A stretch of 64,000 nt of DNA from Paractinoplanes ferrugineus (GTDB taxonomy: Bacteria > Actinomycetota > Actinomycetes > Mycobacteriales > Micromonosporaceae): contig NZ_BOMM01000052.1 in NCBI RefSeq assembly GCF_016862195.1, forward strand, positions 124,001 to 188,000. The letters are read 5' to 3'. Of the stretch, positions 47,759 through 63,839 are shown piece by piece (positions within the stretch are counted from its first letter, which is position 1; each line of letters starts with the position of its first letter). Below the pieces are notes generated by a model. It had not been told where the DNA came from. It did no database searches and worked only from the letters and a program-made list of their open reading frames with translations. A program made the translations under genes and the position numbers.

Positions 47759-47772
47759 GCCTACAGTGAACG
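47759..47772 (+). promoter_or_regulatory. Conserved upstream element of XRE-TPR gene 3
   Basis: The identical GCCTACAGTGAACG seen at paralogue 1, 48 bp before the ATG. A flanking GTGACG...CGTCAC dyad spans it. Confidence 0.6.
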
Positions 47773-47819
47773 TCACCCAGCGGCGCCAACCGCCACGGCA
47801 GCAGAGCGCGGGAGATGTG

Positions 47820-49172: not shown

Positions 49173-49825
49173 AGACTCACCCGAGCCGTTACGACGATGA
49201 TTGGTCGCGATTCAGCTCGTTGTCACGGATGGTCAATCACTGGGATAGACCTGGATGGACATCGGGAAGATCTGCCTACTATTGGTATATGACGTTTGAC
49301 TCGCCATCCCTGGTGGGACTTGCGACCGAATGCCAATCGAAGTTTGTTCCAGATGACTTTGATATCGTCGAGGCTGACTGGCTGCACCTGTCAGTGATAA
49401 AGCTGGCATGGTCGGATGAAACAGCGATGGGCGAGGTTTCTCAAGTCGTCCGTCGTGCGCGTTCCGCATGTGAAGTTGTTGAGCCCTTCTCGCTCGATGT
49501 GGGTCCATTGGCTGGCTCGGCTGGCGCGATTCGATTCAGTGTCACGCCTTGGGAGCCGGTCGTGGACCTGAGAGTTCGGCTCGGCAACGCAAACTTGCCG
49601 CGTCTGGAACCGACCTCAACGAGCCCGTTCCTGCCGCACATTACTATCGCGTACAGTAATCAGGTTAGGGCCGCTGGTCCGGTAATTGCCGGTGTCGCCG
49701 AGGCGAAAAATGTCCCGCAGGTGCGGGTCAACATCGGCGACGTTGCTCTCGTAGAGGTGCGACGCCATGGTCACTCTTACAAATGGAACACGGTTGAGCG
49801 CATCCCTCTGGCAGGCAACGGTTAA
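49169..49825 (+). CDS. 2H phosphoesterase (2'-5' RNA ligase-like)
   Basis: 218 residues. Two His-x-Ser/Thr motifs, LHLSVIKL and LPHITIAY, define the 2H superfamily (LigT, cyclic phosphodiesterases). It probably acts on a 2',3'-cyclic phosphate or a cyclic or linear oligonucleotide. Coupled by ATGA to paralogue 3. In this setting degradation of an oligonucleotide signal or repair of cleaved RNA are both possible. Confidence 0.75.
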   Translation: MKTHPSRYDDDWSRFSSLSRMVNHWDRPGWTSGRSAYYWYMTFDSPSLVGLATECQSKFVPDDFDIVEADWLHLSVIKLAWSDETAMGEVSQVVRRARSACEVVEPFSLDVGPLAGSAGAIRFSVTPWEPVVDLRVRLGNANLPRLEPTSTSPFLPHITIAYSNQVRAAGPVIAGVAEAKNVPQVRVNIGDVALVEVRRHGHSYKWNTVERIPLAGNG

Positions 49826-49856
49826 GGGATGCATCAGTAACAGCAGTGCAGGTCGA

Positions 49857-51236
49857 CTATTGATTTTGCATCATTCTTATGAATGACTGGACCTCGGCTC
49901 GCTGCCGCCACGGGCTGAGTACGGTGCCCAACCGCGTCAGTTCCCGCACGGTTCGGGTCGAGCCGGCCGCGATCGCCCCAGGCATGATGGCCATGCCCAC
50001 CGACGCCGCCTCGACGGGGCGCGCTGCTGATACTAACGCTTGTGCATGGAGCGCGGAGAAGTAGGCATAATCGCGAGTAGAGAACGTGGTGGGCTTCAGG
50101 GCGGCTTCGTAGATTGCGGCGGCTTCCTCGGGCCGACCAGACTCGCCGTAGCAGATCGCGGTCTGCACCCTGAACAGCACGGCGTCGTAGTGTGCGGCCA
50201 GCGGGGTCTTATCTGCAGGTCCTTGCTCGAGCAGGTCGCGTGCTCTTTTGAGGGTGTCGTCGACGTCGGTGCGGCTCGACTGAAGCATGGCCAGGCCGCG
50301 GGCCTGCTGTTGTACGGCCTCGGCCATGACGCGGGCGGGTAACTGCCAAGGGCCGTCTTGGACGGCTTCAGCAAGACCAAGCATCCGGGTGGCATCGCGG
50401 GCGTCCCATGCCGATTGGCTCTTCTTGATCAGGATGTACCCGGGCATGGCGTAGTCGGCGGCTTCCATGGCCCACTCGGATGCCCGGTCGCGCCAGTAAT
50501 CGGCGGCTGCCGGATGTCCGGCGTCGCGGTAAAGCCAGCCGGTGAATTCCGCAGCTCGGGCGCCGACGCGAAGCAGCGGCCGGCGCACGGCCCATTTGAC
50601 CGATCGCGCGTTGCGCTGAACGATCGCCAAGATTCCCAGGGCGCCGGGTAGGGCGTAACGGGGCCCGTGGAGGCCGTCGTCAACGGCGCACCGGGTTAGC
50701 TCGTCGTCCAGAAAGCCGATGAGGGTCTCGTCGAGGTATCGGCGCGCGTCGCGGGCGACGGCGTCGATGCGGTCGAGGTCGTCGAGCGTCAGTGCCGGCG
50801 CGGTGATACCGAGGCCCGATCCGGGCTTCACCGTTATCGCGGGGTCTTCGATTGACTGATCGACCCGTACGGGTAAACGTGGCGCAGGGCTGGAGCGCTC
50901 AACGGTGGCTCCGGCCCCTGCGAGTGGCAAGGCGCCGGGTATCGCGTCGGTCGGCCTGATTCTCCGGTTGACCAAGCCGATCTCAGCATCCGTCTCCACC
51001 TTCAAGATGGTGCGAAGAGCCTGGCGTCGGTATTTCCGCGGGTAGGAGACGAGACCGCGTTCGAGTTTGCCAATGTCGTTGGCGGTGACAGGACCGTCTT
51101 GATCGCGTGGGTCCATGATGCTGTTGGCGAGGTCTGCCAGCTCTTCCCGCGACATCGGGCCGTCGCCCGTGGTCGACTCAAGACGCAGTCGTGCCGCGCG
51201 GAGCAGCAGGTTGGGCGGCCGTCGCGACGAGGTCAT
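49857..51236 (-). CDS. XRE-TPR regulator, paralogue 4
   Basis: 459 residues from an ATG with AGGAG. It shares the HTH insertion and NRRIRPTD segment with paralogue 2. The C-terminal helical half is divergent. It is convergent with the 2H gene and divergent from the PfkB operon, so it is the nearest candidate regulator of that operon. Confidence 0.75.
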   Translation of the reverse strand: MTSSRRPPNLLLRAARLRLESTTGDGPMSREELADLANSIMDPRDQDGPVTANDIGKLERGLVSYPRKYRRQALRTILKVETDAEIGLVNRRIRPTDAIPGALPLAGAGATVERSSPAPRLPVRVDQSIEDPAITVKPGSGLGITAPALTLDDLDRIDAVARDARRYLDETLIGFLDDELTRCAVDDGLHGPRYALPGALGILAIVQRNARSVKWAVRRPLLRVGARAAEFTGWLYRDAGHPAAADYWRDRASEWAMEAADYAMPGYILIKKSQSAWDARDATRMLGLAEAVQDGPWQLPARVMAEAVQQQARGLAMLQSSRTDVDDTLKRARDLLEQGPADKTPLAAHYDAVLFRVQTAICYGESGRPEEAAAIYEAALKPTTFSTRDYAYFSALHAQALVSAARPVEAASVGMAIMPGAIAAGSTRTVRELTRLGTVLSPWRQRAEVQSFIRMMQNQ

Positions 51237-51275
51237 GGCTCCTGTGATCACCACCGGGCGAAGTCTTGTGAGACC

Positions 51276-51507: not shown

Positions 51508-51681
51508 ATTCCCGTTCAGATTCCCCTTAGATTCCCGTCTTTCTGGCCTTCCGCGAGACATCGCCATGCGTGACTGTGAGGTAACACAGTGAAGGGTTCT
51601 TGAGTCGAGGCCGGAACGTGGGCAGTCGAACCCACGGCGTGCTCGCCGCGCTAGCGGTGCCACTTTGGATCGGAGAACTCG
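51508..51681 (+). promoter_or_regulatory. Phased ATTCCC module, copy 1, and leader of PfkB operon
   Basis: ATTCCC repeats begin at 51508, 51520 and 51531 (12 and 11 bp). ATGCGTGA starts at 51566 (35 bp later), and a perfect ACTGTG-N6-CACAGT dyad lies at 51573-51590. A 91-nt leader follows, conserved with copy 2 (GCCGCG, CGGT.CCAC, ATCGG blocks), ending in the ribosome site. The rest of the 51237-51681 gap holds the promoter of paralogue 4. Phased heptamers 11-12 bp apart resemble SARP-type sites, but no SARP gene is in the window. Confidence 0.75.
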
Positions 51682-52794
51682 ATGAACACCGATGCCCAGA
51701 CCGCAGCCGACGCGACACCGGACGATGAGGGATACGGAAGCAATGCGCCCGCTGATGGCGCAGCCGCAGGCGCCGGTGCCGGCGGCGTCTTACCTGGTCC
51801 AGCCTCAATAGCCCCACAACTCCGGGGGCGCCACGTCCGTGCTGATAGTGCACATTGCAAGCGCGGTCCGGCTGCTCCGATGCTGGTCGTGGGCAGTGTC
51901 TCCTCCGACGATCTGACGCCACCGATCGGGAACAGCGTTCACACCATCGGGGGAGCTGGCCTGTACGCCGCACTCGGTGCCGCCGCCGTCTGCGACCGGC
52001 CGGTCATATTGGCTGGTGCCGTAGGCAGGGACATCGCCGTTGCCGCCACCGATTGTCTGCGCCAGCGCTCGGTCCACCCGGTGTTAGAGGCCGTCACCGG
52101 GCCGGGGCTGCGGTTCGCGATCCGCTACGACAGCGCGTGGAGGGCTCACTACACCGTCGACGGTGCGGCGGCAGAGGCGGCCATCACCTACCCGATGGTG
52201 AGCAGCGGATGCCCGCACCCGGCCGCAGTCCACCTTTGCCCAACCGGCCCACCGGAGATCCAACTAGAAATGGCTACCGCGCTGCGCGCCGAGCACGGCG
52301 AACAGCTGCCGGTGTCCGCCACCACCTTCGCCGCCCGGATCCGCAGCGACCGCCCTAGGGTGCTCGCCCTTTGGAGTTTGGTTGACGTGCTGATCTGCGA
52401 CGTGCAGGACCTGCTGCTGCTTGCCCAGCATCATGACCTGCGCAAGGCGCTGGAATGGGCCATACAGATCACCGGCCGGCGCGCCACCTGCGTGACCGAC
52501 GCCGCCCGTGGCGCTTACCTGATCTCCGACGGCACCGTCATCAAAATCCCTGCCTACCCGAGCGTCACGATCGACCCGACCGGAGCCGGAGAAAGCTTCG
52601 CGGGAGCGCTGGCCGCCGCCCAGCTGGCCGGGCACGGTCTGATCGCGGCGTCAGCGATCGCGGCGGCTGTCGCCTCGCTGACGGTGGAGAGCTTCGGAGT
52701 GGCTCGCCTCGCACAGGCGGATCCTGCCGAGATCGCCCGTCGTGCCACGGCGTTGGCCGGCGCCGCTTCAGACGGACGCGGCCATGATTTCTGA
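51682..52794 (+). CDS. PfkB-family carbohydrate/nucleoside kinase
   Basis: 370 residues. A 65-residue Ala/Gly-rich N-terminus precedes the kinase fold (MLVVGSVSSDDLTPP). The C-terminal anion-hole motif reads IDPTGAGESFAG (about 297-308), where the family normally has GAGD, so the catalytic Asp appears to be Glu. The ATG at 51682 and its first codons are duplicated at FolE (MNTDAQTAADATP versus MKANTETAVEAPP). It probably phosphorylates a nucleoside or sugar in the modification pathway. First gene of a six-gene overlapping operon. Confidence 0.75.
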   Translation: MNTDAQTAADATPDDEGYGSNAPADGAAAGAGAGGVLPGPASIAPQLRGRHVRADSAHCKRGPAAPMLVVGSVSSDDLTPPIGNSVHTIGGAGLYAALGAAAVCDRPVILAGAVGRDIAVAATDCLRQRSVHPVLEAVTGPGLRFAIRYDSAWRAHYTVDGAAAEAAITYPMVSSGCPHPAAVHLCPTGPPEIQLEMATALRAEHGEQLPVSATTFAARIRSDRPRVLALWSLVDVLICDVQDLLLLAQHHDLRKALEWAIQITGRRATCVTDAARGAYLISDGTVIKIPAYPSVTIDPTGAGESFAGALAAAQLAGHGLIAASAIAAAVASLTVESFGVARLAQADPAEIARRATALAGAASDGRGHDF

Positions 52795-53404
52795 TGGCCT
52801 TCTGGTCGCCGTGGAAGGGATCGACCGCAGCGGCAAGACCACCCTGGTCGCCGCGTTGACGGCCGCGCTGACGGCCGCCGGCATCGATGCGGTGGCGCGG
52901 TCCGAGCCCAGCCGCGGTCCGATCGGCGCGTTCTTCCGGAGCATCACCGTCGACACGTCCTTGCCGGCGACCGCCGCGGCGCTACTGTCAGCGGCCGACC
53001 GCCACGAGCAGCAAAGCGCGCTGCATATGCAGCTCACCAGGCATCGCGTGGTGCTCTCCGACCGGTACTACCTGTCAGGGCTCGCCTACCACCTGGCCGA
53101 GGGCATCGATCCCGCCTTCTACCGCAGCCTCAACGAAGGTATCCGCCGGCCCGACCTGTATCTGCACCTTGCCGTCGCGCCCGCGATCGCAGCGAACCGA
53201 GGCGAACCTCTGCAGGGCAGGTGGGAGCAGCCCACCTTCACCGCGACCCTCCCCGCTGCCTATGAACGGTGCATCGCACTGCTCAGCGAGAGCGAGGCAG
53301 CCCGATTCATCGACATCGACGCCGCCCAACCGTCAGCACACGTTCTCGGCGCAGCCATCGCCGCCGTCGAAGCTCTCGCCGTGGAAAGGAACCCGACACC
53401 GTGA
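52784..53404 (+). CDS. Thymidylate kinase-like dNMP kinase
   Basis: 206 residues. AVEGIDRSGKTTL (P-loop, about 9-21) and SDRYYLSGLAY match dTMP kinases; a DR-containing LID is less clear. It should phosphorylate a deoxynucleoside monophosphate to the diphosphate. Overlaps the PfkB stop by 11 bases and the FAD gene start by 4 (GTGA). As part of this operon, a modified nucleotide is a likely substrate. Confidence 0.8.
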   Translation: MISDGLLVAVEGIDRSGKTTLVAALTAALTAAGIDAVARSEPSRGPIGAFFRSITVDTSLPATAAALLSAADRHEQQSALHMQLTRHRVVLSDRYYLSGLAYHLAEGIDPAFYRSLNEGIRRPDLYLHLAVAPAIAANRGEPLQGRWEQPTFTATLPAAYERCIALLSESEAARFIDIDAAQPSAHVLGAAIAAVEALAVERNPTP

Positions 53405-54810
53405 CATCCCTGACCCTCCAGCCTCGCCGATGCGAAGTCCTGGTCATCGGCTCCGGGCCCGCCGGATTGTTCGCCGCCGATCAGCTCCTTCAAGCGGGCA
53501 TCAAGGACGTCGTGCTGGTGGAGAAAGGCCAGCCGATGCCGTCGCGGATCTGCCCGCCCGGGCCTGGATGCGACTGCAAGGTCTGTGACGTGCTCGACGG
53601 GGAGGGCGGTGCCGGGTCCTTCTCCGATGGCAAGATCACCCTGTCCGGGACTCGCGGCACGCACGGCCAGGAGCTCTTCACTGAAGACCAGGTCCGGCTG
53701 CTCGCGGTGGTGGATGCCGCTGTGCGGCGCTTTGTTCCCGACGGCGTCGACTACCCACCCGTCACCGTGCTCGACGCCCTGGCCGGCCACGACCAGGCAG
53801 GACTGAGGTTCGAAAGCTACCCGCTGCTGCACGTCGGCTCCGACGGCGTACGGCTCTTCGGCGAGCGCTTCGCCACCGACCTGCGCGAGCGAGGCGTCAC
53901 GTTCCTCACCGGCACCGAAGCCACCGAACTGGTGATCAGCGGCGATCGCGTCAGCGGAGCCGTGCTGCGCTCTCGCCGGTCCCGGCAGAGCTCGGCCATC
54001 GAGGCCGGCGCCGTGGTACTCGCCGCGGGCATGACCGGCACCCCGTGGCTGGAAGAGCAACTACGCGCCGCCGGCGTCACCCTGGAGACGGGTCCAGCGG
54101 ATATCGGTATCCGACTGGAGACGACCGCGGCGGCGCTGGCACCGTTCATTGACCAGTTCTACGACTTCAAGGTCGCCCACACAAGCTCGGCGGGGATCAT
54201 CGTGCGCAGCTTCTGTGTCAACGGCAACGGCTTCATCGTCAACGAATTCCACCGACCACTCGGGATTCGGGCGGTCAACGGCCACAGCTTCCTCAACCGT
54301 GCCAGCGGCCAGTCAAACCTGGCCATCCTGGCCACGATTGACGAATCGTTCACGGCCGACCCCAAGGCCTACGTACGCCAGCTCGCCCGCGACATCACCG
54401 CTGGCACCGGCGGCTACCCGGTCGTCCAGCCGCTACGAGAGTTCCTGCCCGACCTGTCCGGCGCGGCTGTCGCCCAGGGCGTCACGGCCACCAACCCCAA
54501 GACCCGCCCCGCCGCGCTGGACCAGCTTTTGCCGGCGGTGCTGCACGACGCGTTCGCCGGCTACATCCGCGCCCTGGGTGCCGTCCTGCCGCCGGTGCTC
54601 AGCCCCGACAGCCTCGTGTACGCACCCGAGATCAAGTATTACAACTACCGCGTTCCGATCGACACCGCGACGTGGGAGAGCAACGACATCGAGCGCCTGT
54701 TCGTTGTCGGAAACGCGGCTGGCTACACCGCCAGTCTGTCGGCGGCTGCTTTGTCCGGCATCATCGCCGGCCGGGCCATCGCCGCTTCTCTGCCCACGTC
54801 CCCGAGGTGA
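53401..54810 (+). CDS. FAD-dependent oxidoreductase
   Basis: 469 residues. GSGPAGLFAADQLL (17-30) binds FAD; a Cys-rich segment (CPPGPGCDCKVCDVLDGEGGAG) and FSDGK follow, a pattern seen in COG2509-type flavoproteins. The C-terminus has VVGNAAGYTASLSAAALSG, the second FAD contact. It probably oxidises or reduces a ring or side chain in the pathway. GTG start coupled by GTGA. Confidence 0.75.
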   Translation: MTSLTLQPRRCEVLVIGSGPAGLFAADQLLQAGIKDVVLVEKGQPMPSRICPPGPGCDCKVCDVLDGEGGAGSFSDGKITLSGTRGTHGQELFTEDQVRLLAVVDAAVRRFVPDGVDYPPVTVLDALAGHDQAGLRFESYPLLHVGSDGVRLFGERFATDLRERGVTFLTGTEATELVISGDRVSGAVLRSRRSRQSSAIEAGAVVLAAGMTGTPWLEEQLRAAGVTLETGPADIGIRLETTAAALAPFIDQFYDFKVAHTSSAGIIVRSFCVNGNGFIVNEFHRPLGIRAVNGHSFLNRASGQSNLAILATIDESFTADPKAYVRQLARDITAGTGGYPVVQPLREFLPDLSGAAVAQGVTATNPKTRPAALDQLLPAVLHDAFAGYIRALGAVLPPVLSPDSLVYAPEIKYYNYRVPIDTATWESNDIERLFVVGNAAGYTASLSAAALSGIIAGRAIAASLPTSPR

Positions 54811-54812
54811 CC

Positions 54813-55757
54813 GTGACTTCTGCAGCAATGATCCTGGCCTTCGACGTCGTCCCCGACCTGGAGGCGACCATGGACATTCAGATCCCCGCCCTGGCCTGGC
54901 AGCCTGCCGGCCTCGGCCGGTGGGAACGCACCTACTACCCCCAGGGTGAACCGGTCGTCGTGCAGGTCGAACGCGACCACCAGCGCCTGCTCTTCTCCTA
55001 TCAGGCCAGCCCCGACGACGCCCGACTGATCGGCGATGCGCTGACCGCGGCATTCCCCGCCGACAAGCAGATCGACAACCTCGACCTCGACGGCCATCCT
55101 GTCCTGACTAGCCTCCGCGCCCGCTACAGCGGGGTCATCGTCATGACCACCCCGGCGTTCGAAGCGCTCGTGTTGACCGTCCTATCGCAGAACAGGTCCG
55201 GTGACACCGTCCGGCAGGTCTTCCCGAAACTGGCCGCCGCCTGCCACGGCATCACCGCCGAGCGTATCGCCGCGATACCCGTCGCCGAACTGGCCGACCT
55301 GATCCGCTCCGCCGGCCCGTACAAGGCAGCCCGACTGTCCGAGGCCGCGGCCACCATCGCGACGCTCGGCGACGCCGCCTTCGAGCAGATCGTCCGTCAG
55401 CCCGCACCGCAAGCCCTGACCTACCTGGAAGCGCTGCCCGGGGTAGCGCACAAGACCGCCGCCTGCGTGCTCGTCTTCTCAGGCGCCACCACCGGAACCC
55501 TGCCGGTGGACACCCACTTGTTCCGAGTCGTCGATCGCCTCGGCCTGGCCACCCACGACGGCCGCAACAGCAAGAGCGTCGCCGCGAAACTCATCAGCAC
55601 CCTGCTGGAATACGGCCCCGACGTGGCCCCGGCCCACTTCATCTTCCTGCTCGTCGGCCGCACCACCTGCACCGCCGGCACCCCGAACTGCGCTGACTGC
55701 TTCCTCGCCGAGGAATGCGGTTACGCCATCGCCCGCATCGAGGAGGCATCACGATGA
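54813..55757 (+). CDS. HhH-GPD DNA glycosylase with Fe-S cluster (Nth-like)
   Basis: 314 residues. An extra N-terminal domain of about 110 residues precedes an EndoIII-type core: LPGVAHKTA with catalytic Lys214, PVDTH with Asp233, and a 4Fe-4S loop Cys286, Cys293, Cys296, Cys302 (C-x6-C-x2-C-x5-C). It should remove a base from DNA and cut the strand. Linked to a modification operon, it may process or correct the modified base, or act at sites of base exchange. Confidence 0.8.
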   Translation: MTSAAMILAFDVVPDLEATMDIQIPALAWQPAGLGRWERTYYPQGEPVVVQVERDHQRLLFSYQASPDDARLIGDALTAAFPADKQIDNLDLDGHPVLTSLRARYSGVIVMTTPAFEALVLTVLSQNRSGDTVRQVFPKLAAACHGITAERIAAIPVAELADLIRSAGPYKAARLSEAAATIATLGDAAFEQIVRQPAPQALTYLEALPGVAHKTAACVLVFSGATTGTLPVDTHLFRVVDRLGLATHDGRNSKSVAAKLISTLLEYGPDVAPAHFIFLLVGRTTCTAGTPNCADCFLAEECGYAIARIEEASR

Positions 55758-56584
55758 TCAACCTCGCCGTCATCGCCAGCGTCCCGCACCTGCACGACCT
55801 GTCTGCGCTCGGCTCCATCGACATGGCGCTGACCCACCTGGTCCTGACCAACGACGACTACGCCGACTATTTCCTCGCGCGGTCACGGGCTGGGGTGCGG
55901 ATCGTGCTCGACAACAGCGCCTACGAACTGGAAGCCGACACCGGCAAGGGTCTGAACGCCGGTGCCGTCCTCGCCGCAGCCGAGCGGATCGCCGCCACGG
56001 TGGTCATCTGTCAGGACGTCCTGTACGACGGCGCCGCCACCGTCGCCACCACCCGCTCCTTCCTGACCGAGGCAGCGGGCACACCGTACGAACTGATGGC
56101 GGTACCGCAGGGCCGTACCCGGGCCGAGTGGCTGGACTGCTATCGGCGCCTGGTCCAGATCCCCGGGGTGACCATGATCGGGCTCAGCAAGCTGTCCGTT
56201 CCACTCAGCTTCAACGCACCGGTCGCCGAGAGCCGCCTCGACTGCGTCAAAATCCTTTTACAGACGGGGGTTCCGTTACCGCTGCACCTGCTCGGCGGTG
56301 ACCGGTCGCTGCCCTGGGAACTGGCCGAACACCGCCACCGCGGCCATGACTCCGCCGTGGTCAGCAACGACTCATCTTTCGCGTTCTGGTATCCAGCCAC
56401 CGGTACACCCGTCGACGCAGGCGAAGGCCGGGCCGAGCGCGAAGCACCCGGAAAGCCGGACCTGATCTCGACCACCTTGAGCAGCGACGCCCTGGCGTTG
56501 GCCGCAGCCAACATTCGTATGCTGCGCGCCGCGGCCGGACTCAACACCGACGACCCGAACCACCGCGAGCGGCAGGCCGCGTGA
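55754..56584 (+). CDS. TGT/DpdA-like base-exchange protein
   Basis: 276 residues with a TIM-barrel pattern: IVLDNSAYELE (50-60), VVICQDVLYDG, MAVPQGRTRAEW and MIGLSKLSVP resemble the tRNA-guanine transglycosylase superfamily forms found in phages and dpd clusters, which insert 7-deazaguanines into DNA or RNA. It is shorter than bacterial TGT (about 370) and lacks its zinc site. ATG overlaps the glycosylase stop (ATGA), GAGGAGG upstream. Confidence 0.65.
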   Translation: MINLAVIASVPHLHDLSALGSIDMALTHLVLTNDDYADYFLARSRAGVRIVLDNSAYELEADTGKGLNAGAVLAAAERIAATVVICQDVLYDGAATVATTRSFLTEAAGTPYELMAVPQGRTRAEWLDCYRRLVQIPGVTMIGLSKLSVPLSFNAPVAESRLDCVKILLQTGVPLPLHLLGGDRSLPWELAEHRHRGHDSAVVSNDSSFAFWYPATGTPVDAGEGRAEREAPGKPDLISTTLSSDALALAAANIRMLRAAAGLNTDDPNHRERQAA

Positions 56585-56979
56585 TGCCGACCTCGACATT
56601 CATCCAGATCGGTGCGCAGGTGGACGGACTGCACCACTGGCCCGGCGCCGCCGCACCCGAGGAATACCTCGGCACACCACATCGCCACCTGTTCGTCGTC
56701 ACGGTGGAGCTGCAGGTCTTTCACGATGATCGCGAAATCGAGATCAACGCCGCAGCCCGATGGTTGACCGCATTGCTGCCCACCTTGGCCGACACGCCAC
56801 CAACGGGTGACGGTCCGATCGATTACGGGCCGCAAAGCTGCGAACGGCTCGCCGCCCGCGTCGCTGAGGCATTGAAACAACGCCACGGCGCCAACCGGGA
56901 CATCACCGTGACCGTTCTGGAAGACGGGCTGCTCGGCGCCGGGCTCACCTGGAAACCGGTTCCGGAGACGAGCCTATGA
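56584..56979 (+). CDS. QueD-like (PTPS fold) protein lacking the catalytic Cys
   Basis: 131 residues. LHHWPGA and TPHRHLFVV match the two His-bearing parts of the PTPS/QueD zinc site (His17 or 18, His33, His35). The catalytic Cys before the HxH motif of true QueD is absent. It probably binds a pterin-like or deazapurine substrate in a changed role. Starts at the stop of the TGT-like gene; last gene of the operon. Confidence 0.55.
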   Translation: MPTSTFIQIGAQVDGLHHWPGAAAPEEYLGTPHRHLFVVTVELQVFHDDREIEINAAARWLTALLPTLADTPPTGDGPIDYGPQSCERLAARVAEALKQRHGANRDITVTVLEDGLLGAGLTWKPVPETSL

Positions 56980-56987
56980 CCTGGCCG

Positions 56988-57491
56988 CTAAGCGAACACC
57001 GTGCGCCCTGCCGTAGGGATGCTCAGCATGGCGATGCCGTCACGCTCGAGCAGCTCATCGATCTCCGCCTGATCGAACTGGGCGACGCCCGCATCGTTAA
57101 GGATCCGCATGACCGTCGGGTGGGGACGCACGACCGCGGGGTCACCCTGCATGATCTCGCCGACCCCCTCGTCGGTGGTGGTCCGTGCGGGGAGCTCCAC
57201 CGGGCTATCGGCCAGGAACGCAAACATGATCACGTGGTAGGGGCCGTTGCGCGCTTGCCCGCGCATCTCGTACACGCCGGTCATGGTCACCTTGTCGATC
57301 CGGCACCCGGATTCCTCCAAGGTCTCGCGCCGCGCAGCGTCCGGCAGCGACTCCCCGAACTCGACCTGCCCGCCCGGCAACAGCCAATGTCCGGCGTAGG
57401 GGCCTCGCTCCTGATGGACGAACGTGATCGTCGCATCCGCGCCCGGCACGATCGCCAAAGCAGCTGTCCGCACCTTGTCGTAACCACTCAC
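56988..57491 (-). CDS. Nudix hydrolase
   Basis: 167 residues from a GTG with GGAGG 11 nt upstream. The Nudix box is complete: GGQVEFGESLPDAARRETLEESG. It should cleave a nucleoside diphosphate linked to another group, perhaps an unwanted modified or oxidised nucleotide. It is the only minus-strand gene between the two modification operons. Confidence 0.8.
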   Translation of the reverse strand: MSGYDKVRTAALAIVPGADATITFVHQERGPYAGHWLLPGGQVEFGESLPDAARRETLEESGCRIDKVTMTGVYEMRGQARNGPYHVIMFAFLADSPVELPARTTTDEGVGEIMQGDPAVVRPHPTVMRILNDAGVAQFDQAEIDELLERDGIAMLSIPTAGRTVFA

Positions 57492-57880
57492 CGGCTCTAT
57501 CGCCTCCACGCTGCGCGGCCCCGCCAAGACGCCGCTGCCTTACCGATCGGCCACTCTGCCGGTCGGCCCACGGCACGGTACACCCGCCGGCCCGCGCAGT
57601 CAGAAACCCGCTCGCAGGCCGGGCGACACACCACCCCAACGGTGGACGGCGCTGACCTCCGCCAGGCCGGGCCAGCCGCTGCTGTCGGCCTCCACCCAGC
57701 AAGGCCAGCGCCGTTCCCCTCGAGGACGACGTCCAGATGACCGCGGATTCACGACGGTGATGCGCCGTGCCAGCGACTTGGCCGCGTCACCGCTCCCTGC
57801 GCAACTGAGGCGGCTGATAGAGCCTCATCCCCGTCATCGGGCACTACACGCCCAGTGCAACCAGATCGAAGGGCGAGCGC
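57492..57880. other. Gene-free stretch between Nudix and sugar genes
   Basis: A 389-bp divergent intergenic region. No gene, repeat or copy of the phased ATTCCC module is seen; it must hold the promoters of the Nudix gene and the nucleotide-sugar pair. Confidence 0.5.
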
Positions 57881-58735
57881 ATGAAAGCCATCATCGCTGT
57901 CGGCGGCATCGGCAGCAGATTCTTCCCCATCGGGAAATCCGTCAGCAAAGCCATGATGCCTATCTTGAACAGGCCGGTCGTCGCCTACGCAATCGCCGAC
58001 TGCATAGCCGCCGGCGCCCACGAGATCGCGTTCGCCCCCACTCCGGGCGAGACCAGTAGACAGGTACAGCACTATCTCACCGAAGACCACGACCTGAAGG
58101 CGTTCTTCACCGCCCGAGGCTGGGACGCGAAATACGCCCCGCTCGCCGACCTGCACCACCAGGCCGAATTCACCTTTCTCGAACAGCCCCGCGACGGCCG
58201 CTACGGAACCGCGCTGCCCGTGATGCTCGCCGCCGAATTCATCGCTGACGACGACTTCCTCCTCACCGCGAGCGACGACCTGCTGCTCCGCACCGACGCA
58301 GGATCCGACCTCGCCGACCTCGCCGCCGCCCGGGCAGCCGCAGCGACACCCGGCGCGCTCGCCGCCGCCACCGTTCCGGGCGCGGACGCCCACCGGTACG
58401 GCGTCCTGAAGCCACGCCCCACCACCCACGGCCACCAGCTCCTCGACCAGCTGGTCGAGAAGCCCGACACCTACGATCAGCCCACCGCCTACATCAACAT
58501 CAGCCGAACCCTTCTCCCCGCCTCGGCGCTGGACTACTTCCTGAAGCTGAAACCGGCGGCGAACGGCGAATACCAGGCCACCGACGCCATCGATGCGTTC
58601 GCCCGCGACCATGACGTGCTGATACACCAGGTCACCGGGCAATACCACGACTGCGGCAGTCCTGCCGGCTGGCTCGCGGCCAACAACTCCGCAGCCCAGG
58701 CCCAAGGACTCAACCTGGCACCGACACCCCAGTAA
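57881..58735 (+). CDS. Sugar-1-phosphate nucleotidyltransferase (GalU-like)
   Basis: 284 residues. GGIGSRFFPIGKSVSKAMMPI is the UTP-glucose-1-phosphate uridylyltransferase start motif; a metal-binding SDDLLL and a late VEKPDTY follow. It should make a UDP- or dTDP-sugar, the substrate for the dehydrogenase gene 211 bp downstream. Good AAGGGCGAG site. Confidence 0.8.
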   Translation: MKAIIAVGGIGSRFFPIGKSVSKAMMPILNRPVVAYAIADCIAAGAHEIAFAPTPGETSRQVQHYLTEDHDLKAFFTARGWDAKYAPLADLHHQAEFTFLEQPRDGRYGTALPVMLAAEFIADDDFLLTASDDLLLRTDAGSDLADLAAARAAAATPGALAAATVPGADAHRYGVLKPRPTTHGHQLLDQLVEKPDTYDQPTAYINISRTLLPASALDYFLKLKPAANGEYQATDAIDAFARDHDVLIHQVTGQYHDCGSPAGWLAANNSAAQAQGLNLAPTPQ

Positions 58736-58946
58736 CTACACAAATGCCGCCCGGCCTGGCGTGCACCCGGGCCGACACCAGGACCTTCACCGGCGACTCG
58801 AATCCGTGCAACGTCGAGTTCGCATCCCGGCGGCGAAAGCGCGTCGAACCGGGTTGGGCTGATGTCGCAACGCAGCGGACCACCCCCACGATCATCGGCC
58901 CGAAACCTTCGCACTGCCCACCGCGCTGAACCTTGAGAGGAAGCAC

Positions 58947-60263
58947 ATGCAGAACCAGCACCTCCCGACTGTCGGCGTCGTCGGACTCGGCTACGTCGGG
59001 CTCACCCTCACCGCCGCGCTCGCCGACAAGGGTTACACCGTGCACGGCGCCGACATTTCACCCACCGTCATCGCCGCCTTGTCGCAGGGCCGCTCGTACA
59101 TCTTCGAACCCGGCGTCGATGACGCGCTGCGGACCCACGTCGGCCGAGGCATTCACGTCGGCACCAACCTCCCGCAAGACACCGTCGACGTGGCGGTGAT
59201 AAGCGTGTCCACCCCGGTCGACGACACCACCCACCGTCCGTACCTGGACAACCTCACCGCTGCTGCCCGCACGATCGGCGCCACCTGCCGGCCCGGCACC
59301 CTCGTCGTGGTTCGCAGCACTGTCCCGGTCGGCACCAGTCGCCGCCTGGTCCTTCCAGAGCTGCGCGCCGCCTGGGGCGACCAGGTCCGGTTGGTGATGG
59401 CACCCGAGCGCACCATCCAGGGTCAGGCACTGCGCGAGCTGGTCGAGCTGCCCCAAGTGATCGGCGGGCTCGACGAACAGAGTCTCCGGCTCGGCATCGC
59501 GTTCTTCGACGGCTTGGCCAGGACCGTCGTGCCGGTCTCCAGCATGGAGACCGCGGAGATGGTCAAGCTGTCCAACAACTGCCACACCGACCTGATCTAC
59601 GCGTTTGGCGCCGAGATCGCGCTGATCGCCGAGCAGAACGGCCTTGACCCCCTGGAGGTCATTCGCGCAGCCAACGTCGACTACCCGCGGCCCGATCTGT
59701 CCAAGCCCGGATACGTCGGCGGGGGCTGCCTCTCAAAAGACCCCTACATCATGATCAACAGCGCGGGCACCTACGAACCGTTCCTGGTCGGGCGGGCCCG
59801 GGAACTCAACGAGCATCTCCCCGCGCACGTCGCAGACACGATCGTCCGGATGCTCCGCGAGGCCCGCGGCGAGACCCGAGGTCTGCGGCTGGCGGTGCTC
59901 GGGTGGGCGTATAAGGGCTGGCCGCCCACCGACGACATGCGCGGCGCCGCGATCGAGATCATGATGCCGATCTTCGCGGCCGCCGGCATTACGGTCCTCG
60001 GCCACGACCCCATGGTCCCCGCCGACGTCATCCGCAACTACGGCGGCGAACCAGTCAGCCTCGACAAGGCGCTCACCGACACGGACGCCGTCCTGGTCAC
60101 CAACGACCATCCCGACTACCGCGCCATCGACATCACCACGATGCTCGGCGACGCCCGGCCCGCCTTGATCTACGACTCCTGGCGCAACCTGAACGCGGAC
60201 ACGATCACCGGACTCGGCATCCGCTACGCAGGACTCGGCTACGTGCCGGCGGCAACTGCATGA
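58947..60263 (+). CDS. Nucleotide-sugar 6-dehydrogenase (UDP-glucose or UDP-HexNAc type)
   Basis: 438 residues. VVGLGYVGLTL (NAD site), TVPVGTSRRLV, KLSNNCHTDLIYAFGAEIALIA, and GGGCLSKDPY with the catalytic Cys are complete. It oxidises the sugar C6 alcohol to a carboxylate with two NAD. RBS GAGAGGAAG. With the nucleotidyltransferase it should supply a nucleotide-linked uronic acid. Confidence 0.85.
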   Translation: MQNQHLPTVGVVGLGYVGLTLTAALADKGYTVHGADISPTVIAALSQGRSYIFEPGVDDALRTHVGRGIHVGTNLPQDTVDVAVISVSTPVDDTTHRPYLDNLTAAARTIGATCRPGTLVVVRSTVPVGTSRRLVLPELRAAWGDQVRLVMAPERTIQGQALRELVELPQVIGGLDEQSLRLGIAFFDGLARTVVPVSSMETAEMVKLSNNCHTDLIYAFGAEIALIAEQNGLDPLEVIRAANVDYPRPDLSKPGYVGGGCLSKDPYIMINSAGTYEPFLVGRARELNEHLPAHVADTIVRMLREARGETRGLRLAVLGWAYKGWPPTDDMRGAAIEIMMPIFAAAGITVLGHDPMVPADVIRNYGGEPVSLDKALTDTDAVLVTNDHPDYRAIDITTMLGDARPALIYDSWRNLNADTITGLGIRYAGLGYVPAATA

Positions 60264-60508
60264 CGAGCGTGCCGATGGCCGCCGTCGACTTCAGTGGCCT
60301 ACGAACTAGCGACGCAACTGTCCGCTGACGATCTGTGAGCCCAGCCCGCCATGACGGCGGACGTCGAGAACGACAGGAACGCCAGCCCTGCGTGCTGGCC
60401 CAGCAGCGCCAGGAGGCAGCCAAACTCCCCGGTATCGAGCGACCGTCCCGATCTACATACGAGGCGCAGACGCAGCTTCAACGCGGGTCGTGCAGGTCGC
60501 GGGGATTG

Positions 60509-60680
60509 ATTCCCCTCGAAATTCCCCTTGAATTCCCCAGCGGGTGGTCTTCCCCGACGAAACACGATGCGTGACTGTGGAGTGACACAGTGAAGGCTTC
60601 GAAATCGGGTCAAGGCGGGAACTGCCGAGCCCAATACATGCCCGCCGCGTTGACGGTTCCACCTATATCGGGAGGGGTCA
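60509..60680 (+). promoter_or_regulatory. Phased ATTCCC module, copy 2, and leader of FolE operon
   Basis: ATTCCCC repeats begin at 60509, 60521 and 60532 (12 and 11 bp). ATGCGTGA starts at 60567, and the perfect ACTGTG-N6-CACAGT dyad is at 60574-60591. An 89-nt leader conserved with copy 1 precedes the start. All internal distances match copy 1. The remainder of the 60264-60680 gap shows no gene. Confidence 0.75.
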
Positions 60681-61373
60681 ATGAAGGCCAATACTGAGAC
60701 CGCAGTCGAGGCGCCGCCGAACCTAGCGAGCCGCGAGCGCACCGAGCCTCCGGACAGTGCCCGGGCCGGCACGGCGGCGCTGGCGATGCCTGGCGCTGGT
60801 CTAGCTACCACGCCACTCGAGGTAGAGGACACTCTTGCCGCCAAGGCGGCGGCGCAGATGTTCGCCGCGCTCGGCGTCGATCTTGACCGGGAGCACCGCC
60901 TGGCTACGCCGCAGCGGTTCATCCGCGCATTGAGAGAGATGCTCACACCGCCACGGTTCGACCCGACGTCGTTCGAGAACGCTGACGGCTACGACGAGTT
61001 CGTCGTCGTGGAGGCGGTGCCGTTTTTCAGCCTCTGCGAGCATCACGTCCTGCCGTTCGTCGGCACGGCCACCATCGCTTACCTGCCGGACGCCCGGATC
61101 GTCGGGCTGTCCAAGATGGCGTGGGTGGTCCAGTTGTTCGCCCGGCAGTTGCAGGTGCAAGAGCGGATGACCGGGCAGATCGCCGACTGGATCGGCGAGC
61201 ACCTGCAACCACGGGGCGTCGGGGTGCAACTGCGCGCGGAACACCTCTGCATGAGCCTGCGGGGAGCGCGCGCCACCGGAGCGGTCACCACAACGACGGC
61301 GCGACGCGGCGCACTCCTCGACGACCCCGAACGGCGCGACGAATGGCTGCGATTCCTGGCAGCCACCCGCTGA
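60681..61373 (+). CDS. folE: GTP cyclohydrolase I
   Basis: 230 residues with an unusual 48-residue N-terminal extension similar at its start to the PfkB protein. FSLCEHHVLPFVG (zinc Cys119, His122) and RAEHLCMSLRGA (second Cys) are the family motifs. It converts GTP to dihydroneopterin triphosphate, the first step of 7-deazaguanine synthesis. RBS GGAGGGG. Confidence 0.9.
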   Translation: MKANTETAVEAPPNLASRERTEPPDSARAGTAALAMPGAGLATTPLEVEDTLAAKAAAQMFAALGVDLDREHRLATPQRFIRALREMLTPPRFDPTSFENADGYDEFVVVEAVPFFSLCEHHVLPFVGTATIAYLPDARIVGLSKMAWVVQLFARQLQVQERMTGQIADWIGEHLQPRGVGVQLRAEHLCMSLRGARATGAVTTTTARRGALLDDPERRDEWLRFLAATR

Positions 61374-61416
61374 GGGTCGGGCGATCCGTTCTTCTCTGCG
61401 GTGAAAGGAAACCACA

Positions 61417-61800
61417 GTGGGACACACGATCGGCAAGAGCTTCACCTTCGAGGCAAGCCACCAGTTGCCTGGTCTGCCGGAAGGCCACAAGTGCGGGCGC
61501 TTGCACGGCCACAACTACTCCATCGAGGTCACGCTGGCCGCTGACGGACTCGTCGAGCCGGGATTTGTCACCGACTTCGGCGACCTGGCACCGTTCAAGA
61601 GCTACCTGGAGGAAACGTTCGACCACCGTCATCTGAACGACGCCATGGTGACGGCGCCGACCAGCGAGAACCTTGCCGAATGCCTGGCAGGATGGTTCAT
61701 CAGCAATGTTGAGCCTGAGATCCCGGGCACTCTGGTCGCCGTCCGGGTCAGCGAGACGCCGTCGTCGTGGGCCGAATATCGGCCGGGTCGAGAATCATGA
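61417..61800 (+). CDS. queD: 6-carboxytetrahydropterin synthase
   Basis: 127 residues. FEASHQLPG with His15, HKCGRLHGHNY with Cys26, His30 and His32, and FDHRHLND are complete, so it should be active. It makes 6-carboxy-tetrahydropterin from the FolE product. GTG start with AAAGGAAA. Confidence 0.9.
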   Translation: MGHTIGKSFTFEASHQLPGLPEGHKCGRLHGHNYSIEVTLAADGLVEPGFVTDFGDLAPFKSYLEETFDHRHLNDAMVTAPTSENLAECLAGWFISNVEPEIPGTLVAVRVSETPSSWAEYRPGRES

Positions 61801-62510
61801 CCACCTCCACGCCCGGCCAATCGCGCGTGCTCCAGGTCGCCGAACTGTTCGGCCCGACGTTTCAGGGCGAGGGTCCTTCCTGTGGACAGCGTGCGCTTTT
61901 CGTACGCCTCTCCGGCTGCAACCTCGACTGCGGCTGGTGCGACACCCCGTACACCTGGGACTGGGAACGCTTCAGCCGCGACAAGCAGACCGTTGACATG
62001 CCCCTTGCCGCAATCGCCTCCTGGGCGGCCGGCCTTGACACAGACCTGATAGTCATCACCGGCGGCGAACCCATGATCCAACATCGGCGCCTGCGGGAAC
62101 TAGCGGCCGAACTGGTTGCCGGCGGGCACCGCGTTGAGCTGGAGACCAACGGCACCATTGCGCCGGACGCAGCGCTGCTCGAAGTGATCAGCGCCTTCAA
62201 TGTGTCACCGAAGCTGAACGGATCCGGTATCCCTGAGCAACGCCGGTTGCGCCGCCAAGCGCTGGCTGCCTTTCGTGACTGCGGCAAGGCCGAGTTCAAA
62301 TTCGTCATCACCGGCCCGGCCGATATCGAGGAGCTGGTACAGCTACAAACCGAGCTGTCCCTGCAGCGGGTATGGGTCATGCCGGAGGGCACCACCGAGG
62401 CGTCAGTCCTCGCCGGCCTGCGAGAGCTCGCCGAGCCGGCCCTGACCCACGGCTGGAACCTCACCAGCCGTCTACACGTGCTGCTGTGGGGTGATGAACG
62501 TGGCCGCTGA
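61797..62510 (+). CDS. queE: 7-carboxy-7-deazaguanine synthase (radical SAM)
   Basis: 237 residues. GPTFQGEGPSCGQRALFVRL and the Fe-S motif CNLDCGWCD (Cys41, 45, 48) plus VITGGEP are the QueE signature. It forms 7-carboxy-7-deazaguanine (CDG). ATG overlaps the queD stop by ATGA. No QueC follows in the window. Confidence 0.9.
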   Translation: MTTSTPGQSRVLQVAELFGPTFQGEGPSCGQRALFVRLSGCNLDCGWCDTPYTWDWERFSRDKQTVDMPLAAIASWAAGLDTDLIVITGGEPMIQHRRLRELAAELVAGGHRVELETNGTIAPDAALLEVISAFNVSPKLNGSGIPEQRRLRRQALAAFRDCGKAEFKFVITGPADIEELVQLQTELSLQRVWVMPEGTTEASVLAGLRELAEPALTHGWNLTSRLHVLLWGDERGR

Positions 62511-62991
62511 CGTGCCCCCGATCATTCTGCCCTGGCACGACCTGGCCGCGACGATCAAGGAAATCGCCGCGAAGGTACGCGACGACGGCAGCCCCGACGT
62601 GGTGGTGGGCATCCTGCGCGGAGGAATGGTTCCCGCAACCGTGTTCGCGCACGCCCTTGCCGTGCGCACCGTCCGCGCCGTAGAGGTCCTGCACACCACC
62701 AGCGACACCCTGAACGCCGCCAAGACCGAAGCGCCGCAGGTAGCGAACCCCGCCAGCCTCGGCGATCTCGCCGGCCGCGACGTCCTCGTCGTCGACGACA
62801 TCGCCGGCTCCGGCGGCACGATGGCCTACTCAACAAAGCTGGTTACCCAAGCCGGCGCCACCCGCGTCCGCAGCGCTGTCTGCATCGTCAATGCCGGCAA
62901 CTGGCAAGGCCCGCAGACTCCCGAAGAGACGCTGACCTACATCGGCACCACCGTCGAAGGATGGGTGATCTTCCCGTGGGAAAATCAATGA
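62494..62991 (+). CDS. Phosphoribosyltransferase
   Basis: 165 residues. VVVGILRGGMVPA and DVLVVDDIAGSGGTM (PRPP-binding loop) place it in the xanthine/hypoxanthine phosphoribosyltransferase-like group. In the deazapurine antibiotic pathways a comparable enzyme joins the base to ribose phosphate. It overlaps queE by 17 bases, so CDG or a relative is a likely substrate. GTG 62491 is another start. Confidence 0.8.
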   Translation: MNVAADVPPIILPWHDLAATIKEIAAKVRDDGSPDVVVGILRGGMVPATVFAHALAVRTVRAVEVLHTTSDTLNAAKTEAPQVANPASLGDLAGRDVLVVDDIAGSGGTMAYSTKLVTQAGATRVRSAVCIVNAGNWQGPQTPEETLTYIGTTVEGWVIFPWENQ

Positions 62992-63839
62992 CCACCGCCA
63001 TCACCTCGGCCCCCGAGGGGGACGGCGCACTCAGTACAACCCGACCGGGCACCCCGATGATCGGCCCGTACTCGATCAACCAGATGGACGACTTCTACAC
63101 CGCCATCCCCACGGGCGAAGTCAAACCATCGGGCATCATGAACCTGGCCCAGCGGCTCTACATCGCCGAGCGCTGCCCAGCCGGGGCCAAGGTGGTCGAC
63201 ATCTGCTGCGGCCGAGGGCTGCAACTGCCGACGCTCTACCGGTACGCGCCCGGGTTGCAGCAGTACGTCGGGCTGGACCTGGCGGCCGGCAACATCGCCG
63301 AGGCTCGCGCTCGCATCGCGCACCTCGATGCTCACTACGGGCTGCAGCGGTTCCCGATCGAGTTCGTCGAGTGCGACGTCTCTGATCCGTGGCCTACTGC
63401 TGCGGTAGGTGACGGTTTCGACGTCGCCGTCTACACCTCCGCGCTGGAGCACCTGCCGCGGGAACTGGCGATCGCCAGCCTCCAGCATGCCGCGGCGGCG
63501 CTGCGACCTGGCGGAGTCCTCTACCTGTCGACCCCGGAGACGCCCGGCCTGGCGCCGCGGCCGCTGCAATACCGGGTGCACGTCTACGAATGGAACAGTG
63601 CCGAACTCGAGCCGATCCTGGCCGAGTGCGGGCTGGTAGTGCAGGAGAAGGTCGGCCTGCTGCCCCCGTCGCCCGACGAGACATCCGCAGCGCTGGCTGA
63701 GGAATTCGGTGAGGGCGCCCGAACGTGGTACCAGCGGCTCCGCGAAACCGTGTCACCTGCGCTGCTGGACACGGTAGCTGCTGCCGCAGTCCCGCGGGCG
63801 GCGACGGAAATGCTGTACGTATGCCGGCGCCCGGCCTGA
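62988..63839 (+). CDS. Class I SAM-dependent methyltransferase
   Basis: 283 residues. VVDICCGRGLQLPTL (SAM motif I), YVGLDLAAGNI, and FDVAVYTSALEHL fit a UbiE-type enzyme. Coupled by ATGA to the phosphoribosyltransferase, last gene of this operon in view. It may methylate the deazapurine carboxylate or ribose. The remaining 161 bp of the window show no gene. Confidence 0.8.
   Translation: MTTAITSAPEGDGALSTTRPGTPMIGPYSINQMDDFYTAIPTGEVKPSGIMNLAQRLYIAERCPAGAKVVDICCGRGLQLPTLYRYAPGLQQYVGLDLAAGNIAEARARIAHLDAHYGLQRFPIEFVECDVSDPWPTAAVGDGFDVAVYTSALEHLPRELAIASLQHAAAALRPGGVLYLSTPETPGLAPRPLQYRVHVYEWNSAELEPILAECGLVVQEKVGLLPPSPDETSAALAEEFGEGARTWYQRLRETVSPALLDTVAAAAVPRAATEMLYVCRRPA

Follow-up and report, generated by a model that had tools for sequence, protein, structure and literature searches.

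A QueC-free actinobacterial locus of two 7-deazaguanine gene clusters with a shared upstream element and kinship to a phage cassette

What does a genome without QueC do with a set of 7-deazaguanine genes, a protein resembling the base-exchanging enzymes TGT and DpdA, and several nucleotide kinases? The question is raised by a locus of Paractinoplanes ferrugineus that lies within a stretch of 64,000 nucleotides (hereafter the window; bases 124001-188000 of contig C52, NZ_BOMM01000052.1) of a genome (G000; 9.41 Mb, 129 contigs, estimated completeness 100%). Its genes in the window, between positions 51682 and 63839, are all on the plus strand bar a Nudix gene on the minus strand. We find the locus to be real and conserved: it holds two 7-deazaguanine clusters, probably linked by a single regulatory element, and one of them is a cellular form related to a cassette of phages. 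A published account of this gene combination was not found, as judged by titles.

All genes named in a previous, sequence-only reading of this DNA are present, as seen from family matches and fold (Table 1), and they fall into two separable clusters. Module 1 encodes a PfkB-family kinase, a deoxynucleoside monophosphate (dNMP) kinase, an FAD enzyme, a DNA glycosylase, a DpdA-like protein and a QueD-like protein without the catalytic cysteine (Cys-less), followed by the Nudix hydrolase; of its five junctions, three are overlaps of 4-11 nt, one is a gap of 17 nt, and the fifth hinges on the inferred start of the FAD gene near 53401. Module 2 comprises, within the window, FolE, QueD, QueE, a phosphoribosyltransferase (PRTase) and a methyltransferase (MTase). 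The locus does not end at 63839, as had been assumed: module 2 continues for about 7 kb past the window (in locus L001), where its SAICAR-synthetase-like gene matches TIGR00081 at 138 bits, below the cut-off of 190. Between the Cys-less QueD-like gene and module 2 lie the Nudix gene, a GalU-like gene and a nucleotide-sugar dehydrogenase gene (UGDH). The uronic sugar proposed earlier has no basis other than the GalU/UGDH pair; a GalU relative was found in one of 22 other loci searched and UGDH in none.

Upstream of its two operons, the window has about 150 bp of shared sequence. This includes an inverted repeat, TGACTGTGAGGTAACACAGTGA at 51571-51592 before module 1 and TGACTGTGGAGTGACACAGTGA at 60572-60593 before module 2, whose shared form TGACTGTG-N6-CACAGTGA stands 89 nt before the pfkB start and 87 nt before the folE start; its core, ACTGTG-N6-CACAGT, is a perfect inverted repeat, and the adjoining outer base pair is not matched. 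With a search pattern drawn from the two sites themselves, the exact form was found at these two sites only in 403,476 bases of 19 loci, and allowing up to three substitutions added one further match, in line with the 0-3 per set found in mononucleotide-shuffled sequence. The element was not found in relatives among the 19 loci and is known from this genome only. An exact 13-mer is also common to both upstream regions; searched with up to two mismatches, it gave four matches, which is not above chance (27 of 100 shuffles gave as many), and a 10-base piece of the repeat near the Nudix gene of M. echinofusca is about what chance would give. The argument for co-regulation thus draws on the exact 13-mer copies, the alignment of the two regions and the inverted repeat, from which the two operons are probably controlled through one shared switch, a candidate operator, as had been proposed.

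Both modules recur elsewhere, and a lack of synteny in other genomes, which the sequence-only reading had named as a refutation, does not apply. A DpdA at an identity of at least 58% over the matched part (type A) is encoded in seven distinct genomes, window included: besides the window, G738, M. qiuiae (L018, G677), M. echinofusca (L020, G627), a metagenome-assembled genome of the Micromonosporaceae (L019, G591), S. specialis (L021) and a plasmid of S. chartreusis (L003). By tblastn, the QueD-like gene lies beside DpdA in six of the seven loci and a Nudix gene is present in six (the contig of the metagenome-assembled genome ends), glycosylase and FAD gene in 5/7, the dNMP kinase in 4/7 and PfkB in 3/7. 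Module 1 is syntenic in Micromonospora, and locus L022 has the order FolE, QueD, kinase, QueE, PfkB, dNMP kinase, FAD enzyme, HhH glycosylase, DpdA, QueD-like protein. In M. echinofusca the FAD match is shortened and the glycosylase is split over two frames; in S. specialis the DpdA match is partial and the QueD-like gene is in two frames; and S. chartreusis has a minimal version of QueD, QueE, FolE, DpdA and Nudix only, beside an MFS transporter. In the PfkB kinase, GAGE replaces the GAGD of the family in the window and in two relatives (L022, L018).

As for module 2, its radical SAM protein has relatives, at E values up to 1e-50, in 13 of 354 family genomes (G000 included), and in all six loci inspected from the 12 other genomes FolE, QueD, QueE, PRTase, radical SAM and DegT follow in the same order, which bears out the earlier placement of a phosphoribosyltransferase in a deazaguanine operon. 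The MTase is present in three of these six loci and the SAICAR-like gene in two (G029 and G044, from the same genus, with the run at 47-87% identity). In three (L053, L054, L057), an open reading frame (ORF) with the motif FSAGLDS, seen by eye, follows DegT and is QueC-like (L055 and L058 were viewed in part and L056 was left out); in two genomes that were scanned with PF06508, it is matched at about 1e-12. Module 2 seemingly has, after DegT, either this QueC-like enzyme or a SAICAR-synthetase-like ligase (L001, L055, L056). That some relatives have a QueC-like enzyme where the window form has the ligase suggests that the ligase acts on the carboxylate of 7-carboxy-7-deazaguanine (CDG). Among the 354 family genomes, 5 have a type-A DpdA, 13 have module 2 and 3 have both, a co-occurrence (3/5) with a chance probability of 4e-4, or 0.006 without G000, not corrected for kinship. 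In G677 and G738 the two modules lie far from each other, and each comes with a separate FolE, QueD and QueE. Co-regulation of the two operons has support from the shared upstream element, but they are not a single unit, and one pathway tied to this gene order was rejected, with the two halves occurring apart elsewhere.

What the genome lacks bears on the base that the locus would supply. The earlier description of a 7-deazaguanine locus without QueC extends to the whole genome: PF06508 (QueC) has 0 matches in the 9.4 Mb of G000, where the control finds QueC in 12 of 14 named genomes, and PF01702 (canonical TGT) likewise has 0 matches, with a control positive in 14 of 14. By their family assignment, FolE, QueD and QueE lead GTP to CDG, and with no QueC in G000 this QueE product is the last classical intermediate to be expected of the genome.

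The protein once read as TGT/DpdA-like is indeed a DpdA/TGT relative by fold. Its structural model (predicted local distance difference test, pLDDT, 94.6) has DpdA (7ui4, the best match) and TGTs as its closest structures, and by this model it is a short DpdA/TGT-type protein with a TGT-type barrel. Its 276 residues contain no CxCxxC motif. D53, D88 and D206, candidates for the catalytic Asp pair of TGTs, are invariant in 26 sequences. Searching the PDB by sequence, with this protein or with the profiles A1, A4 and A6, yielded no useful match; in the genome contigs, a scan with the single protein found no relative and a profile scan found four loci. By tblastn, relatives were found in 18 phage records, including Weizmannia phage Youna2, Chryseobacterium phage MA9V-3, Cellulophaga phage phiST and Bacillus phage BSP7; a close relative was not found in the viral contigs, which hold two at 36-37% identity.

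The kinship to phages extends to the surrounding genes. In phiST, QueD, QueE, FolE, a MazG-like protein, gp040, the P-loop protein gp041 and the DpdA gp042 follow one another, and such short-DpdA cassettes combine in a single run, as the window does, FolE, QueD, QueE, a Cys-less QueD-like protein, a P-loop gene and a short DpdA, with no QueC in the phiST record. Unlike the window, the phage run is without PfkB, FAD enzyme, glycosylase, PRTase and radical SAM/DegT genes; the DpdA proteins are about 25% identical, and the window cassette is chromosomal. A MazG-like or NTP pyrophosphohydrolase gene is present in the phiST and immuto clusters. The cluster of Flavobacterium phage immuto further has an annotated phosphoribosyltransferase (L034:5843-6238), as does module 2.

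To gauge the linkage between short DpdA and kinases, we compared nine viral loci with a short DpdA confirmed by profile (L004, L005, L006, L031-L036) with six control loci with a 9g-type DpdA (L037-L042: 9g and five from 30 rows of 226 records). A P-loop ORF of 156-189 residues directly adjoins the short DpdA in seven of the nine and is separated from it by two genes in an eighth, immuto; in control 9g, two P-loop ORFs lie more than 8 kb from DpdA. Counted as adjacent or with at most two genes between, the linkage is found in 8/9 short-DpdA versus 0/6 control loci (Fisher p 0.0014), and counted anywhere within 5.5 kb in 8/9 versus 1/6 (p about 0.01), both p values overstating independence given that the phages are related. 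The P-loop genes are annotated as nucleotide kinases only in immuto and Vibrio phage D479, the others being recognised by the P-loop pattern. According to a 2019 paper (PMC6884629), some phages may make modified dGTP for their polymerase, and DpdA2 is reported there as a further subfamily.

The Cys-less QueD-like protein is a member of phrog_17812, a family known from phages, and pairs with phiST gp040 at E 1e-11. In alignment A4, the family keeps three histidines (H18, H34, H36) and Glu 114, presumably the zinc-ligand and substrate-glutamate positions of QueD, and is without the catalytic Cys and the Asp-His pair. A 2023 paper reportedly named a phage CDG decarboxylase DpdL and described 7-deazaguanine in phiST DNA; phrog_17812 would be this DpdL family. 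In 13 viral records, the QueD-like family and QueC nearly exclude each other: eight have the family, seven of them without a QueC match, and the remaining five are all without the family and with QueC (Fisher p 0.005, for records chosen via DpdA or QueD-like searches and not a random sample). The eighth, Vibrio phage D479, combines the family with a partial QueC match (69/210 positions, E 6e-9, above the Pfam cut-off). The family is also spread among the phages PA5oct, Bakedbeans, ACP17, Roos and MA9V-3 (L043, L044, L045, L046 and L033), in Bakedbeans and MA9V-3 at the C-terminal end of a longer open frame.

Bacterial short-DpdA clusters of a second type (type B) were seen in five genomes (L025, L026, L028, L029, L030). 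Here, FolE, QueD, QueE and a distant short DpdA are followed by a protein with at best a weak match to purine nucleoside phosphorylases (5/5) and a thymidylate-kinase-like gene (5/5), which in each case is found some 1.9 kb downstream of the DpdA start (with a Pfam match on one). Of these five, four also have an MTase, four a protein family that we call fam4, three a DUF2797 protein and three a Nudix gene; none of the five genomes yielded a member of the QueD-like family. Fam4 occurs in seven distinct genomes, beside both types of DpdA cluster, and has no Pfam match (e.g. L022:7173-8399 on the minus strand, L025:15433-16650, L018:11381-13108). Its invariant ExExK is reminiscent of CYTH/triphosphate-tunnel enzymes, a likeness that no search confirmed. 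Fam4 was not found in G000, an empty result that, from this search, shows little.

Table 1. Positions (in window coordinates) and family assignments of the features of the locus
Feature	Position	Strand	Evidence and remarks
Upstream region of module 1	51511..51681	+	Alignable with 60512-60680 (local alignment score 51); inverted repeat inside
PfkB-family kinase	51682..52794	+	PF00294 E 1e-19; GAGD motif reads GAGE
dTMP/dNMP kinase-like (dNMPK1)	52784..53404	+	TIGR00041 104 bits, above cut-off 83; ATG start
FAD-dependent oxidoreductase	53401..54810	+	PF00890 (FAD_binding_2) E 1e-15, PF21688 E 7e-9; start inferred, open frame from 53269
HhH-GPD DNA glycosylase, endonuclease III-like	54828..55757	+	PF00730 E 2e-14; PDB endonuclease III E 7e-16; Fe-S Cys pattern, N-terminal extension
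Short DpdA/TGT-type transglycosylase	55754..56584	+	No Pfam match; placed by fold
Cys-less QueD-like protein, DpdL-like	56581..56979	+	No Pfam match; phrog_17812 E 2e-15; phiST gp040 27%; alignment A4
Nudix hydrolase	56988..57527	-	PF00293 (NUDIX) E 1e-13
GalU-like nucleotidyltransferase, system role uncertain	57881..58735	+	PF00483 (NTP_transferase) 2e-24; galU TIGR01099 E 2e-39, below cut-off
Nucleotide-sugar dehydrogenase, system role uncertain	58947..60263	+	PF03721 (UDPG_MGDP_dh_N) 2e-35; TIGR03026 290 bits, above cut-off
Upstream region of module 2	60512..60680	+	Carries same inverted repeat as module 1 upstream region
GTP cyclohydrolase I, FolE	60681..61373	+	PF01227 E 9e-55
QueD	61417..61800	+	PF01242 (PTPS) E 8e-29; TIGR03367 84.5 bits, below cut-off 89
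QueE	61797..62510	+	PF04055 (Radical_SAM) 6e-11; TIGR03365 E 1e-27; best QueE model 97 bits, below cut-off 206
Purine-type phosphoribosyltransferase (PRTase)	62491..62991	+	PF00156 (Pribosyltran) E 1e-22; PDB purine PRTases E 3e-14
SAM methyltransferase (MTase)	62988..63839	+	PF13489 (Methyltransf_23) E 4e-13; open frame from 62961
Module 2 continuation in L001			Radical SAM, DegT aminotransferase, two thymidylate-kinase-like genes, HAD phosphatase, SAICAR-synthetase-like, DEDD-type exonuclease, nitroreductase-like

Upstream of the locus, 49857-51254 on the minus strand encodes a 465-residue protein without Pfam match that shows 26-29% similarity to proteins near clusters in L018, L055 and L056; the look of its N-terminus makes it a candidate regulator. 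A pair of genes of lower GC content lies at 47766-49825 (57.5% GC in 48001-50000) and encodes a 468-residue protein without Pfam match and a 2'-5' RNA ligase-like protein. A prophage was set aside for the annotated part of the window, which covers little of bases 1-37000: no virion gene is found among the scanned proteins, and the viral contigs hold no close relative of the TGT-like protein.

How might these parts work together? The best joint explanation that we can offer, held with a confidence somewhat short of even, is that two 7-deazaguanine clusters act together under one operator, with base exchange on a free nucleotide and a nucleoside or nucleotide as the product. The short DpdA would act on a free guanosine nucleotide, most likely deoxyguanosine monophosphate (dGMP), exchanging its guanine for CDG or for 7-deazaguanine, the latter derived from CDG by the Cys-less QueD-like protein. 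Phosphorylation by the PfkB and dNMP kinases would take the exchange product to the di- or triphosphate, and the Nudix hydrolase, together with the endonuclease III-like glycosylase, would keep it out of the cell's own pool of deoxynucleoside triphosphates (dNTPs) and its DNA. In module 2, the PRTase would load the same base on phosphoribosyl pyrophosphate, the SAICAR-synthetase-like ligase may amidate the 7-carboxylate, given that the CDG nucleotide resembles the enzyme's normal substrate carboxyaminoimidazole ribonucleotide, and changes to the sugar may come from the radical SAM and DegT enzymes. A deazaguanine nucleoside or nucleotide natural product would be the most likely outcome. Between nucleic acid and free nucleoside, the two destinations considered earlier, exchange on the monomer is favoured by the linkage to kinase and Nudix genes. 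A wider proposal, which we consider possible and put clearly below even confidence, is that short DpdAs in general are nucleotide base-exchangers and not DNA enzymes: the guanine of (d)GMP would be swapped and the partner dNMP kinase would make the modified dNTP, and actinobacteria would have taken over the cassette, with Nudix and glycosylase as self-protection, in QueC-free nucleoside pathways, possibly of the cadeguomycin kind.

Cadeguomycin is 7-carboxy-7-deazaguanosine, the nucleoside that CDG would give without QueC. In a 2025 review (PMC12648386), it is among the nucleosides without an identified gene cluster. Clusters of the toyocamycin/tubercidin type, whose pathway is in part described in that review, share with our locus FolE, QueD, QueE, a phosphoribosyltransferase and a HAD phosphatase. 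Unlike toyocamycin producers, the window genome has no QueC; in contrast to tubercidin, no UbiD-type family is found among the scanned window and L001 genes, and the locus has a TGT-like protein, kinases, radical SAM and DegT instead. The bacterial dpd islands (dpdA-K) likewise combine a DpdA-type protein with deazaguanine genes in a bacterial chromosome, yet the window genome is without QueC for preQ0 supply, the window DpdA is short, and a PADLOC scan of ten cluster proteins returned only a chance-level match to DpdF (E 0.007, on the PRTase).

Several observations weigh against exchange on nucleotides. The nearest solved relative of the short DpdA, 7ui4, is a DNA enzyme (a DNA preQ0 insertase), and modification of DNA would account at least equally well for a DNA glycosylase that looks intact. 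The endonuclease III-type Lys is kept in all glycosylase copies read and the Fe-S Cys pattern is present, the VDTH of the window and L022 reads VDVH in two others, and the best PDB match is endonuclease III; the glycosylase is the best single argument for an involvement of DNA, be it as the target or as the thing protected. Besides, the S. chartreusis cluster is without a kinase, no P-loop gene lies near the short DpdA of L031, and control CRB2 has a 185-residue P-loop ORF 2.4 kb from DpdA, annotated as terminase small subunit. The likeness of the QueD-like family to QueD is weak (hhalign probability 22%, E 1e-3), and its decarboxylase role is putative. Finally, full QueC occurs elsewhere in some cluster-bearing genomes, making preQ0 a possible substrate there: G627 has one full match (2e-60) outside its DpdA cluster and the type-B genome G760 two elsewhere in the genome, and G677 and G738 have partial QueC-like matches outside the DpdA cluster.

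These points feed the main rival, namely modification of chromosomal DNA, in which DpdA inserts CDG or 7-deazaguanine into already replicated DNA, the glycosylase has an editing or restricting function, and nucleotides are supplied or recycled by the kinases. We regard it as a serious though doubtful explanation: the fold is nearest to a DNA preQ0 insertase, the glycosylase is retained in 5/7 type-A loci and the phage relatives sit among replication genes, but exchange on DNA leaves the kinase and Nudix linkage unexplained, module 2 with its PRTase shares the operator, and no known dpd restriction gene was detected in the PADLOC scan of ten cluster proteins. Alternatively, the modules might be independent, with module 2 making a PRTase-based nucleoside, module 1 something else, and one FolE-QueD-QueE set borrowed. 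The distant modules of G677 and G738, each of which has a FolE-QueD-QueE set to itself, and the ten of 354 family genomes that have module 2 without a type-A DpdA, speak for such independence, which we nevertheless consider unlikely in view of the shared upstream region and inverted repeat and of a co-occurrence above chance, kinship left uncorrected. That a divergent TGT modifies RNA or tRNA would agree with the TGT fold and with a genome without canonical TGT, but is very improbable: the CxCxxC motif is missing, the nearest phage relatives sit in deazaguanine clusters of the DNA type, and kinases and glycosylase would have no role.

In summary, the locus brings together three subjects that have been treated apart, namely the camouflage of phage DNA, the marking of bacterial DNA, and deazapurine nucleosides. 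Should the short DpdA act on nucleotides, the entry of deazaguanine into DNA would not be limited to the time after replication, and such nucleotide-level exchange would account for how a wholesale replacement of G could come about in some phages. Modified dGTP could then be made with one simple enzyme, and the locus would represent a gene-cluster candidate for QueC-free deazaguanine nucleosides.

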